The notes beneath the pieces are model-generated. The model saw only the letters and a program-made list of their open reading frames with translations. It made no database searches and was not told the origin of the DNA. This document shows positions 10,181 through 20,432 of a stretch of DNA of 27,218 nucleotides, one piece after another (position 1 is the first letter of the stretch; every line of letters begins with the position of its first letter). The DNA comes from a virus, in IMG/VR virus record IMGVR_UViG_3300032294_001168, positions 1-27,218 of that record; one strand, 5' to 3'. The translations under genes and the position numbers were made by a program.

Positions 10181-10227
10181 GCTTTTTTCTTGTTGATTCG
10201 TTTAAAGGTATTGATTTATAGATAAAT

Positions 10228-10255
10228 AAAAAAAAACCCCGACTATTTGTCGGGG
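10228..10255 (-). terminator. Intrinsic terminator after the major capsid gene
   Basis: In the mRNA sense CCCCGAC and GTCGGGG form a perfect 7-bp stem around a 5-base loop, followed by nine U residues (10236-10228). It lies 27 bases past the capsid stop, and would separate very high capsid expression from the glycosyltransferase and neck genes downstream. Confidence 0.88.
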
Positions 10256-10282
10256 TCTTAATCAAACTAAACACCTATTCAC

Positions 10283-11482
10283 TTATGATGCAGAACCGTT
10301 AGCAAGAGCGGCAGCAAATCTACCGAATACCAAAGCCTTAGAGTTGTAAACTGCAAATGCAATTCTTTCCTCAACTCGTACAGTTACAAAGTTCTTAGTT
10401 ACGTTGTCAGCATCTTGCTCAAAGAACTCAAGAGTTACGCCCTGACGAACGAACAATTGGGAACCAAGCGCCCAGTCACCAACGAAGAAATCGCCAGCAG
10501 TTACGGCATTGATTGCATAAACAGGAACTCCCATGATGAACATTTGTCCGCCAGTCATAGAAACGTAGCTAGGCAAGATATATGCACCGCTAGTTTCCTT
10601 AACGGATACCAATTGCAAGTAATCGCTTGGGTTGATAAGGATTGCATTTGGAGCATATTCATCTTTGGTAGTTTGAACAACCGCAGCAGCCAAAACGTCA
10701 AATCTGTTGATTAGAGTACCAAATCTTACAGTTGTCCAAGCAGAGCCATCAGTTGCAACACCATGAAGGTTTTGACCAACACCACTTCCGTAAAGGATTT
10801 GGGTGTCTTCTACGTTCAACAATTTGCTAGGCGCACGGCTAGAAAGGTAAGCGATAAGACCAGGAGTATCGTCCAACATTTCTTTTGTCAATCGCATAAA
10901 AGTTGGGATAGTTCTTACAGAACGGTCAACCGCAGCCAAATCGAAATCAGACTGAGGCTTCAACAAACCTTGTGCAGTTGGTGCAGCAGCATTGTCGTAA
11001 GCGGTCTCACGTACGAAACGGATAAGGTTAGAGGAGGTCTGTCCAGTAGGGATAAAAGAACGAACGTGTACTCGTCTATTTGGGTCAAACTTCAAATCAG
11101 GAACTCGGTCAGCTGGGATAACTTCGCCAGTGTAAGAGTTTCCAATTGTCATGTCTTCCTTCAAGTTAAGGTCCAACTTAACTTTGTTAGCGTTTCCGCT
11201 CTTGTAGTTACCGAATGCATCAGAAGAAAATGCTTTCTCCAATTCGCTAGAGAAAGAATGTCCTTTAGCAGCGCTATTAAAGCCAGCCTGAGTTCTTGCA
11301 TCTACTCCGTCCAACTGAGCCTGAAGAGCATCAGCCTTTTCGTTTAATTTAGCGGTCTCGGCAGAAAGGGACTTTCTGAACTCCTCACCAGCTTCTTTCA
11401 TAGCCTTTACGTCAGAAATCAAAGTTTCGTTTGACTCCAATTTCGCAAGTACTGAATCCAATTGTGATTTAATTGCTTCCAT
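10283..11482 (-). CDS. Major capsid protein, HK97 fold
   Basis: A 399-residue protein directly after the prohead protease. About the first 95 residues form a Glu/Lys-rich coiled coil (SQLDSVLAKLESNETLISDV...), like the HK97 delta domain that acts as scaffold and is cut away by the protease. The mature part begins around residue 100 and includes HVRSFIPTGQTSS.NLIRFVRET, the E-loop and N-arm style region. The P-domain and A-domain segments include NAILINPSDYLQL and GVPVYAINAV, with a C-terminal VTVRVEERIAFAVYNSKALV strand. These are family hallmarks. A strong terminator follows at 10228-10255. A candidate promoter lies upstream of the protease (12217-12247). Confidence 0.92.
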   Translation of the reverse strand: MEAIKSQLDSVLAKLESNETLISDVKAMKEAGEEFRKSLSAETAKLNEKADALQAQLDGVDARTQAGFNSAAKGHSFSSELEKAFSSDAFGNYKSGNANKVKLDLNLKEDMTIGNSYTGEVIPADRVPDLKFDPNRRVHVRSFIPTGQTSSNLIRFVRETAYDNAAAPTAQGLLKPQSDFDLAAVDRSVRTIPTFMRLTKEMLDDTPGLIAYLSSRAPSKLLNVEDTQILYGSGVGQNLHGVATDGSAWTTVRFGTLINRFDVLAAAVVQTTKDEYAPNAILINPSDYLQLVSVKETSGAYILPSYVSMTGGQMFIMGVPVYAINAVTAGDFFVGDWALGSQLFVRQGVTLEFFEQDADNVTKNFVTVRVEERIAFAVYNSKALVFGRFAAALANGSAS

Positions 11483-18457: not shown

Positions 18458-19087
18458 TTATATTAATTTATCTAAATCCTTGTTTTCTCTAATTGCCTGT
18501 AAAATAAACAACTTCCAAATTTTGTTTTTAGTCTTGGCACCAACGCTAGTCTCGTCTACATATCTAACCGTCAAGCGTAACTCTTTGCGTACGTCGTTCT
18601 CCATATCCTCCACATTATACTCCCAAGGCTTTAAAATTCCTTTTTCTTGAAATTTATTAAACCAGTTCATTCCCCATTCAGCAATGTCTCGGCAAAATCC
18701 TGTCTCCTTGGCATACTGGTAATTATCTCTAAATATCTGCTTACCAACTTCAATCCAATAAGCAATCTCTTCGTTGCTTGGCTCTTTCTCTTTGTTGTTT
18801 AAAGCTTGTACTTCTTGCACAATTTGGCTTTGGTGATGCGCATAGTATTGGTTAATCCAAACGCTCACGGTCTTCTCGTTTACGTGGTAAAAATCGCCGT
18901 ACTGTCCTCGCATACCAGCGTGCAGGATGTAGTCAACTCTTGCCTCTGTCATCCAGCCGTAGCTGCCAAACAATTTGCTAAGGCATCCAAGTAACTCGCT
19001 TGCCTCTTCCTTTTTGTATTCTTTAAATTGCTTTAGTCCGCAAACAAACTCCATCTTTCGGAGGTGCGTTAAAATAATCTCATTCAT
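18458..19087 (-). CDS. Unknown protein coupled to the replication initiator
   Basis: I do not recognise a named family for this 209-residue protein. It is mostly helical with Trp/Tyr-rich segments such as GMRGQYGDFYHVNEKTVSVWINQYYAHHQSQIV. No Walker motifs are present, so it is not an ATPase loader of the DnaC type. It starts at ATG 19087, overlapping the initiator stop by eight bases (ATGAATGA). An overlapping, initiator-adjacent gene of about this size is the arrangement of lambda O and P, where P brings in host DnaB helicase. A helicase-recruiting role is inference from position. Confidence 0.65.
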   Translation of the reverse strand: MNEIILTHLRKMEFVCGLKQFKEYKKEEASELLGCLSKLFGSYGWMTEARVDYILHAGMRGQYGDFYHVNEKTVSVWINQYYAHHQSQIVQEVQALNNKEKEPSNEEIAYWIEVGKQIFRDNYQYAKETGFCRDIAEWGMNWFNKFQEKGILKPWEYNVEDMENDVRKELRLTVRYVDETSVGAKTKNKIWKLFILQAIRENKDLDKLI

Positions 19088-19823
19088 TATTTAGGTGTTT
19101 TTGTTTTTGTAAATCTTGGTAAAGTTCGTCAAATACGTTTTTGGCTTTGCTTTCTTTTTTCGGTATTGGGTTGCCTCTTTTTACCCAATTAAAAAAATGC
19201 TCCTTGGCAAACTTTTCATTTTCTTTAAAATCAGCCTTTAAGATACATTCTTGCCTAAAGGTATTCAAATGGTTTTTAACTTCTGTTAAATCAGCTTTCC
19301 AGTTCATTGCTAATCCTTCGAGCCAAATGTTATTATTCCATAATTGACGAAAAATCGCATTATGTGAATCCTCATTTACTTTACTTTCTTTTTCTTTAAT
19401 TTCTTTTACTTTACTTTCCTTTAATTGCATTGCATCCGCATTGCGTTCGCTATGCGTTCGCATTGCGTTCGCATCATTATCTCGATTCCAGCGTTTCTTG
19501 GCTGATTCTCGTGCCTTTTCTGAACGTTCTTCCTTTAATTCCATACGTTTTAATAGGCTTTCAGACCAAAAATATTGGTCATCTAATTGAAATAAATCAA
19601 AGTCATTAATAAGCTTTTTTATGCAATCCTCATGCGTTTGCAATGCGAATGCAATGCCTTTGTAATGCGTTCGCATACGAAAGTCGCTTTCATTTCTTAG
19701 CATCTCAATTATTGCCCAAAACAACCCATATCCCTCCCAACCCATTTCCATTCTTAGCTGGAGAATCTTTGGGTCATCTTTGGCATTTGAATCGTGGGAA
19801 AAGTAATAAGCCTCTTTTTTCAT
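19080..19823 (-). CDS. Replication initiator-like, DUF4373 N-domain
   Basis: A 247-residue protein. The N-terminal half (AYYFSHDSNAKDDPKILQL, MGWEGYGLFWAIIEMLR) matches the DUF4373/Lin1244-type winged-helix domain found in phage replication proteins. A charged, repeat-rich linker (about residues 115-155) follows, then a C-terminal helical domain (residues 160-235). The linker's DNA contains four tandem 11-bp iterons and a purine-rich AT tract, so the gene may contain the replication origin, as lambda O does. The ATG lies nine bases after the U-run of a terminator-like hairpin, and a perfect promoter sits at 19920-19947. No catalytic primase or helicase motif is seen. Confidence 0.78.
   Translation of the reverse strand: MKKEAYYFSHDSNAKDDPKILQLRMEMGWEGYGLFWAIIEMLRNESDFRMRTHYKGIAFALQTHEDCIKKLINDFDLFQLDDQYFWSESLLKRMELKEERSEKARESAKKRWNRDNDANAMRTHSERNADAMQLKESKVKEIKEKESKVNEDSHNAIFRQLWNNNIWLEGLAMNWKADLTEVKNHLNTFRQECILKADFKENEKFAKEHFFNWVKRGNPIPKKESKAKNVFDELYQDLQKQKHLNNE
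19375..19472. other. Candidate replication origin: iterons plus AT tract inside the initiator gene
   Basis: Four tandem 11-bp units lie at 19429-19472. In the mRNA sense they read GCGAACGCAAT, GCGAACGCATA, GCGAACGCAAT and GCGGATGCAAT. The period is not a multiple of three, so each copy encodes different residues, which points to selection on the DNA. Directly next to them is a nearly pure purine/pyrimidine, AT-rich tract (19375-19426) containing two 14-bp direct repeats at 19375 and 19405, a possible unwinding element. The order iterons then AT tract within an initiator gene is that of lambda ori. Confidence 0.65.
19632..19676. repeat. Second iteron-like cluster in the initiator gene
   Basis: ATGCGTTTGCA (19632), ATGCGAATGCA (19643, again an 11-bp step) and ATGCGTTCGCAT (19665-19676). 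The last is the exact reverse complement of the ATGCGAACGCAT found in the main iterons. The unit is near-palindromic (TGCG-AA-CGCA), so both orientations could be bound by one dimer. Confidence 0.55.
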
Positions 19824-19860
19824 AAAATAAAAAACCCCAACAGGTGAGAGACTGTCGGGG
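19824..19860 (-). terminator. Terminator-like hairpin before the initiator ATG
   Basis: In the mRNA sense CCCCGACAG and CUGUUGGGG pair over 9 bp with one G-U pair, around UCUCUCAC, followed by UUUUUUAUUUU. The wobble pair exists only on this strand, which fixes the direction. The U-run ends right at the initiator ATG, so full termination would stop initiator expression. Confidence 0.8.
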
Positions 19861-19913
19861 CAGGTTGAGTTAACCTATGGAATCATTCTTGCCTCTCACC
19901 TCAGGAATGATTC
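19824..19913 (-). ncRNA. Structured leader or short RNA with complementary hairpin loops
   Basis: Starting about seven bases past the promoter box, the RNA folds as: P1, GAAUCAUUC/GAAUGAUUC (9 bp, 19905-19913 with 19880-19888, 16-base loop); P2, AGGUU/AACCU (19862-19876); and the terminator hairpin (19835-19860). The P1 loop contains AGGUGAGAG (19893-19901), fully complementary to CUCUCACCU (19842-19850), of which seven bases lie in the terminator loop. This is a possible kissing interaction. It could be an attenuator, a ligand-sensing leader or an about 85-base regulatory RNA ended by the terminator. I recognise no known class. Confidence 0.62.
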
Positions 19914-19919
19914 GATACA

Positions 19920-19947
19920 CAAATATAAATCTTTTCGATTTATCCAA
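19920..19947 (-). promoter_or_regulatory. Promoter for the initiator leader
   Basis: TTG at 19947-19945, a 17-base spacer and perfect TATATTTG at 19927-19920. The predicted RNA start (about 19913) coincides with the first base of hairpin P1. The -33 box lies in the end of the upstream HTH gene. An inverted repeat (ATAAATC/GATTTAT, 19925-19943) covers the spacer. Confidence 0.75.
19925..19943. promoter_or_regulatory. Candidate operator in the initiator promoter
   Basis: ATAAATC (19925-19931) and GATTTAT (19937-19943) form an inverted repeat with a five-base centre, covering the promoter spacer and -7 box. The 49-residue HTH protein encoded immediately upstream or the XRE protein are candidate binders. 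Confidence 0.4.
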
Positions 19948-20089
19948 CGAGTGAACGCTTCTTTAGTTGAAAATAAATACAACCGTAGGATAGTCCCATT
20001 TCCATAGCAATTACCTTAATTGGCTTTCTGTCTTGCCAGCCTTCAAAGATTAACTCCTTTTCGTACTTAGTCAAGTTTCTGCGTCTCAT
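19940..20089 (-). CDS. Small HTH protein, 49 residues
   Basis: A short gene starting at ATG 20089 (or 20095, two residues longer). It begins MRRRNLTKYEKELIFEGW and contains PIKVIAMEMGLSYGCIYFQLKKR, a helix-turn-helix of the homeodomain/resolvase type with the turn at MGLS. It overlaps the end of the preceding gene by about 23 bases. The promoter for the initiator leader overlaps its last codons, so it is well placed to regulate that promoter. No enzymatic part is present. Confidence 0.65.
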   Translation of the reverse strand: MRRRNLTKYEKELIFEGWQDRKPIKVIAMEMGLSYGCIYFQLKKRSLVG

Positions 20090-20432
20090 AGTCATTTAAA
20101 ATTTGTTCAATAGCTGCTAGACAGTCATGGAATAGATTGCCACCTTGGTCAATGGAATTGTGGAGGCGTTCAAACAAAGTCACAAACTCGTGAAACTGCT
20201 TAATTGTTGCCTCGCCTCCGTCGTAATTTTCCAAGAATCTAAATGCCTCGGTTGATTTACGTTTTAAAGCGTTAATCATATTCTTATGCTTGGTTTTTAG
20301 GTCGCCATCAAATGCCTTGAGCATTGTCACGTCTTCGTAGTAATCCAGCATAATTTCCTGAAGAGCCAAGTATACCAAGTACTTTTGCGTTGCTCGGTGA
20401 TTAAGTTCCAATATTATTTCCTCTCTAGTCAT
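20067..20432 (-). CDS. Hypothetical helical early protein
   Basis: A 121-residue protein that I do not recognise. It appears almost wholly helical (IILELNHRATQKYLVYLALQ, KNMINALKRKSTEAFRFLENY, LFHDCLAAIEQILNDY) with mixed charge and one Cys. No DNA-binding turn or membrane span is visible. It lies in the early leftward operon, before the small HTH gene, and its 3' end overlaps that gene by about 23 bases. The ATG at 20432 follows the upstream stop by 17 bases. Confidence 0.65.
   Translation of the reverse strand: MTREEIILELNHRATQKYLVYLALQEIMLDYYEDVTMLKAFDGDLKTKHKNMINALKRKSTEAFRFLENYDGGEATIKQFHEFVTLFERLHNSIDQGGNLFHDCLAAIEQILNDYETQKLD

Follow-up and report, generated by a model that had tools for sequence, protein, structure and literature searches.

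Loop-loop complexes between RNAs from opposite strands are formed by RNA I and RNA II of ColE1, and the CI RNA of phage P4 and the c4 RNA of phage P1 are antisense immunity RNAs. In antisense attenuators of the pT181 type, kissing hairpins act in the leader of an initiator mRNA, and the specificity of their loops can be diversified (PMC4878617, PMC3753616). In the guanidine-IV riboswitch (GGAM-1/mepA motif), the loop of a 5' hairpin kisses the loop of the terminator hairpin just before the start codon (PMC7736828, PMC11611296). There the kissing loop, once formed, makes it harder for the terminator stem to be completed and so allows read-through (PMC11611296), and in the discoverers' proposal the kissing hairpins are a rigid pair by which the linker is stretched (PMC7736828). 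Guanidine-IV is thus a tested precedent for the control of termination by a kissing interaction (PMC7736828, PMC11611296).

The leader considered here comes from a 27,218-base virus record, the whole of which I will call the window and whose phage genes lie mostly on the minus strand. Judged by its sequence and those of its relatives, it is very probably a real and undescribed switch that sets the amount of a replication initiator. With guanidine-IV it shares a 5' hairpin loop and a terminator loop, then U's, then a start codon. The original prediction, that no class has this layout, is borne out by the lack of any Rfam match but was too strong in view of guanidine-IV (PMC7736828, PMC11611296), which is laid out similarly. 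Guanidine-IV is the nearest known layout, but the leader falls outside that class: it matches neither the covariance model nor the defining loop sequence, its loops have no conserved nucleotides with which to build a ligand pocket but at least 20 kissing combinations, and it occurs in phages of Bacteroidota before initiators and endonucleases, whereas guanidine-IV is found mainly at transporter genes of Firmicutes. Guanidine-IV is controlled at the level of termination, as the leader presumably is.

The resemblance to pT181-type systems lies in a putative attenuator with kissing hairpins placed before a replication initiator. In the leader, however, no counter-transcript is evident, the complementary loop being in the same RNA, nor is there an antiterminator that invades the terminator stem: the conserved complementarity is confined to loops, and the minimum-energy fold keeps both stems. 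The P4 CI and P1 c4 RNAs are likewise short leader RNAs of phage early operons, with self-complementary elements that govern downstream expression, but their structures are different, the leader has no Rfam match, and its action in trans is hypothetical. The fully complementary 7-nt loops recall ColE1, except that in the leader the pairing is within one transcript and beside a terminator.

No family reached its gathering score in a scan of Rfam, and permissive scans gave only weak matches to unrelated or generic families. The trpB RNA motif (RF04312) was rejected, since it scored 25.8 bits in the window and 27.1 bits in one relative (L081) against a gathering score of 59 and matched no more than a generic hairpin with terminator. 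The matches to NsiR1 and CopA-like families were dismissed as weak and generic. A literature search of open-licence papers found no prior description of the element.

The Leader and Its Parts

The leader occupies a non-coding stretch of the minus strand, between a 51-aa open reading frame (ending at 19940) and the initiator reading frame (starting at 19823). Its parts are as follows:

19944..19947, minus strand: upstream promoter element TTGG, from sequence
19920..19927, minus strand: -7 box TATATTTG, from sequence
19880..19913, minus strand: hairpin P1, with arms GAATCATTC and GAATGATTC, 9 bp extended by a mismatch and 2 bp, and a 10-nt apical loop; from folding
19893-19901, minus strand: 9-mer of the P1 loop, AGGUGAGAG, which contains kissing half 1
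19893..19899, minus strand: kissing half 1, GUGAGAG, in the P1 loop; complementary to half 2, with compensatory changes
19862..19876, minus strand: linker hairpin P2 (AGGUU/AACCU), from folding
19835..19860, minus strand: terminator hairpin P3, 9-10 bp with an 8-nt loop; from terminator scan, folding and two-sided pair changes
19844..19850, minus strand: kissing half 2, CUCUCAC, in the P3 loop; complementary to half 1, with compensatory changes
19824..19834, minus strand: U-tract UUUUUUAUUUU, running up to the ATG
19080..19823, minus strand: replication initiator (Lin1244_N, DUF7833, PHROG 2562), by matches to Pfam (7e-12) and PHROG (3e-26)

The downstream gene is thus an initiator, as had been proposed, by its matches to Lin1244_N and PHROG 2562. 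Its ATG, at 19823 on the minus strand, directly follows the U-tract of P3, which agrees with the claim of a terminator-shaped hairpin ending at the initiator ATG. The minimum-energy fold consists of P1, P2 and P3 (-30.5 kcal/mol). With the kiss left out of the energy, it lies at z = -3.1 relative to dinucleotide shuffles, 2 of 200 being as good.

The nine loop bases said to be complementary do all pair in the window: AGGTGAGAG (19893-19901, minus strand) is fully complementary to CTCTCACCT (19842-19850, minus strand), and there is no further exact copy of the 9-mer elsewhere in the window. Seven of the pairs are loop to loop, however, and the other two would invade the P3 stem; only the seven are conserved as a kiss.

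The 51-aa reading frame directly upstream (19940-20095, minus strand) looks by eye like a helix-turn-helix protein and has no match in Pfam or PHROG.

The Kissing Pair in Relatives

Relatives of the initiator were gathered from metagenomic viral contigs, yielding 162 distinct leaders. In what I will call the folded-loop test, the hairpin on the terminator side was folded by itself and the 7-mers of its loop were sought upstream as complements, P1 playing no part in the choice of the loop. A complement was found in 108 of 123 leaders but in only 1.9% of dinucleotide shuffles. The 15 failures look like chance hairpins within the ends of upstream genes. A separate scan for the whole architecture found the arrangement in 110 of the 162 leaders, with 22 loop types; it is looser, giving weak matches in shuffles as well (92 of 1,620), and the folded-loop test provides the better figure. 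The predicted structured leader RNA before the initiator is present with all its elements, on the minus strand and far above chance.

Altogether 223 leaders with the kiss were found, containing 20 distinct kissing pairs. In 19 of the 20 types the second position of the kiss is U and the sixth is A, while the three middle positions vary. The geometry is fixed: the two halves are 45-52 nt apart in all 223 leaders, and the P3 half ends 20-37 nt upstream of the ATG in every one of them. The terminators of the relatives have GC stems and U-runs that abut the ATG, that is, the GC-rich hairpin and U-tract upstream of a gene that define an intrinsic terminator.

Leader Types and Covariation

The leaders fall into at least three types, unrelated in sequence, that follow a common kissing plan. 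Type A (the window and L001-L063) has a long P1, a linker with P2 and a simple P3. Type B (L066 and L075, for example) has a short P1 with a loop of exactly 7 nt, a linker built around AACUUAUU, and an internal loop in its P3. The design of type C (L081-L094) is different from both. Single examples (L116, L307 and L333, the last from a bacterial contig) follow the same plan with still other sequences.

Absence of covariation among homologs would speak against the structure and was looked for; covariation was present instead. In the type B alignment, pairing of the given structure, including the kiss, amounts to 94.5%, and its covariation score is 0.676 as against 0.205 ± 0.017 in shuffles (none of 500 reaching it). 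The kissing helix itself is 93.4% paired, while controls in which it was slid reach at most 52.5%, and five of its seven pairs show changes on both sides. This score, together with the folded-loop test, bears out the proposed loop-loop pairing. In type A, two-sided changes are seen in 12 of the 20 predicted stem pairs of P1 and P3. Covariation of the type A kiss was judged from individual loops, because the MAFFT alignment displaces the kiss by one base in leaders of the GUGG types. A P2 stem of at least 5 bp can be formed by 23 of 25 distinct type A linkers, which, since individual linkers are short, is suggestive of a conserved stem.

Promoter and Strand

The window leader is preceded by TTG-N17-TATATTTG, a promoter layout of the Bacteroidota type. 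Of the 223 kissing leaders, 217 have a -7 box of the form TANNTTYG before P1. The RNA was predicted to begin at the first base of P1, and the promoter is indeed directly upstream, but in the kissing leaders 2-6 nt usually separate P1 from the G of the -7 box, and so the start probably coincides with P1 or precedes it by a few bases.

The stem variants of type A include 45 cells with G·U and 1 with A·C, and therefore the RNA is that of the minus strand. The same counts led me to reject a DNA cruciform or operator. Leader-peptide attenuation was rejected as well, there being no conserved small reading frame. Control by an antisense RNA is disfavored by the rarity of antisense promoter boxes: TANNTTTG, the -7 box in antisense orientation, occurs in 6 of 110 leaders and the sense box in 96 of 110, so that a counter-transcript is not needed. 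In the window, a scan for this type of promoter found no antisense -7 box on the plus strand from 19700 to 19960.

Genes Behind the Leader

A search pattern made from the type B RNA sequence alone found at least 120 stretches. Among the matches listed, nearly all precede an initiator, a gene inserted before an initiator, or an HNH endonuclease. The initiators are of at least six N-terminal types: Lin1244_N, DUF1376-like, HTH_36, DnaD_N/HTH_36, replisome organizer (PHROG 6251) and O-like, the last assigned by its C-terminal part. The DUF1376 assignment and two of those to HTH_36 fall short of the curated cut-off of Pfam and are based on matches to PHROG. Some leaders are followed by a GIY-YIG gene or a DNA methyltransferase, with the initiator immediately next; the type C leaders of L087-L094 are followed by an HNH gene and then the initiator; and others precede free-standing NUMOD4/HNH_3 endonucleases. 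One leader precedes an ATPase gene, behind which lie a second kissing leader and an initiator.

Non-homologous initiators may have the same loop pair, from which it follows that the constant part is the RNA. Recognition of the loop by the initiator was rejected on the same grounds, one loop type serving initiators that are not homologous. The element is undescribed, widespread and tied to replication initiators with several unrelated N-terminal types, and the tie points to a common need in Bacteroidota phages, that of limiting the dose of initiator.

Several initiators (L438, L441, L444, L446 and L477) have different N-terminal domains but similar C-terminal parts (L438 and L441, for instance), as if N-terminal modules had been exchanged.

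The type of promoter and prophage-like relatives in Bacteroidota bins point to Bacteroidota as hosts. No close cultured relative was found, and a blastn search of the leader against cultured phages gave matches only at the level of chance. Three annotated phage relatives from outside Bacteroidota (EF62phi, LBR48 and Vibrio phage 2.095.A) have no room for such a leader, the initiator lying close behind other genes.

Within the initiator gene of the window are imperfect 11-bp repeats resembling GCATTGCGTTC, in two clusters (19420-19485 and 19622-19676) that are partly inverted relative to each other. These are probable iterons, and the replication origin may therefore lie within the initiator gene, as it does in phage lambda.

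A Possible Mechanism for the Leader

Comparison of the sequences establishes the structure of the RNA and the strand to which it belongs, the promoter, conservation of the kiss, the shape of the terminator, the fixed geometry and the tie to initiator or endonuclease genes. How the parts work together is a matter of interpretation, and the leader is probably an attenuator of transcription that acts in cis and consists only of RNA, in which the kiss, by competing with the terminator or tuning it, would set the dose of initiator. Transcription would start at the strong promoter just before P1, which would fold first. The loop of P3, on leaving RNA polymerase, would pair with the P1 loop through 7 bp, and this kiss would compete with, or tune, the final closing of the P3 terminator, which reaches the start codon with its U-tract. 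Depending on how much of the RNA is terminated there, at about 85-90 nt, and how much is read through, more or less replication initiator would be made, and the probable origin within the initiator gene would be transcribed more or less often.

Because a GC-rich hairpin and a U-tract abut the ATG in all designs, I infer that termination is the regulated step. With less certainty, the kiss may favor read-through, as in guanidine-IV, because a rod of P1, kiss and P3 (about 29 layers) would be hard to span with an 18-nt linker in which P2 is folded. Rough estimates, which ignore bending of the kissing complex, put the rod at about 28-31 layers (78-87 Å) and the linkers at 15-19 nt; the reach of a type A linker with P2 folded, estimated just as roughly and again ignoring bending, is about 42 Å. 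These lengths agree with what is known of guanidine-IV. The P3 stem of type A, calculated alone, is already strong (-16.5 kcal/mol), and for this reason the kiss may have little weight in termination in that type. The fixed frame and freely varying middle of the kiss provide natural matched and mismatched pairs with which to test its effect on termination, a question still open for guanidine-IV.

It is possible, if doubtful, that the kiss only stabilizes a compact terminator or a short RNA, in which case nothing would be switched and the leader would be a fixed brake or the source of a stable small RNA. Both inner stems can be formed while 7-nt loops kiss through 7 bp, and the strength of P3 fits as well. 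However, stable terminators normally have short, tight loops, and a matched second hairpin, kept in many unrelated designs, would be a costly means to stability alone. The constant abutment on the ATG also disfavors an independent gene for a small RNA.

Changes of Loop Type and Possible Sensing in Trans

On a tree of type A initiators with 44 tips, at least 19 changes of loop type are needed, close to what is obtained with random labels (mean 24, minimum 20). Initiators that are 97-98% identical may have different loop pairs (L051 and L052, L038 and L042), and in these cases both halves have changed together and are matched. The leaders of L038 and L042 are nearly the same on the promoter side but differ in the RNA from P1 to P3, so the leader moves or changes as a unit. 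In all seven records with two leaders, the two loop pairs differ. Loops thus switch almost independently of the ancestry of the initiator, which would be expected equally of frequent recombination and of selection for specificity, and which leaves room for sensing of dose in trans.

Such sensing would work by pairing of loops between the terminated leader of one genome copy and the nascent leader of another, which would then terminate, so that more copies give less initiator. The leader would resemble an RNA controlling plasmid copy number or an immunity RNA of the P4/P1 type, except that one transcript would supply both partners, and the loop's variable middle would determine which co-infecting genomes sense each other, as in copy-counting or incompatibility. 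I consider this unlikely. A constant frame around a highly variable middle, near-random scatter on the tree, and matched pairs that differ between nearly identical initiators and within single records do form a pattern that resembles an incompatibility determinant. Yet the loops should pair within one molecule in preference to pairing in trans, except where folding puts the leader under strain; leader cassettes that recombine with no selection acting on them would also have scattered loop types; and the leaders before endonucleases form lineages of their own, so that differences between loops within a genome may be only a matter of history. Were it true, action in trans would give phage genomes a means, made of RNA only, to count or exclude one another.

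Ligands and Autoregulation as Improbable Alternatives

A metabolite riboswitch, in which a ligand would stabilize the kiss as in guanidine-IV, is an improbable explanation. Guanidine-IV does have the same layout (PMC7736828), and in type B the internal loop and the linker are conserved, but no unpaired sequence common to types A, B and C is available for a single pocket, the freely varying kissing bases contrast with the highly conserved loops of guanidine-IV, and an Rfam match is absent. Autoregulation by an initiator that binds its own leader RNA, or the use of the inverted repeats in DNA as an operator, is more improbable still: nucleic-acid binding is expected of the gene product and the two halves do make an inverted repeat in DNA, but nearly identical leaders precede non-homologous initiators and endonucleases, G·U without A·C is specific to RNA, and both halves lie exactly within hairpin loops.

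Other Hairpins and Possible Leaders

Two leaders depart from the common plan. L365 (upstream of 1353) retains the type B terminator hairpin P3 but has no P1, and L491 retains the type B terminator hairpin without a normal P1, so P1 may be dispensable in some phages. Elsewhere in the window (10224-10306, minus strand), a GC-rich hairpin with a U-run lies just after a 399-aa open reading frame (10283-11482); it matches the type A model weakly (E 0.3) and resembles an ordinary terminator. Finally, the leaders of L153, L154 and L156 are larger, contain a segment that may kiss (TCAACGACCA/TGGTCGTTGA in L153 and GAGTAAC/GTTACTC in L156), and perhaps represent further types.
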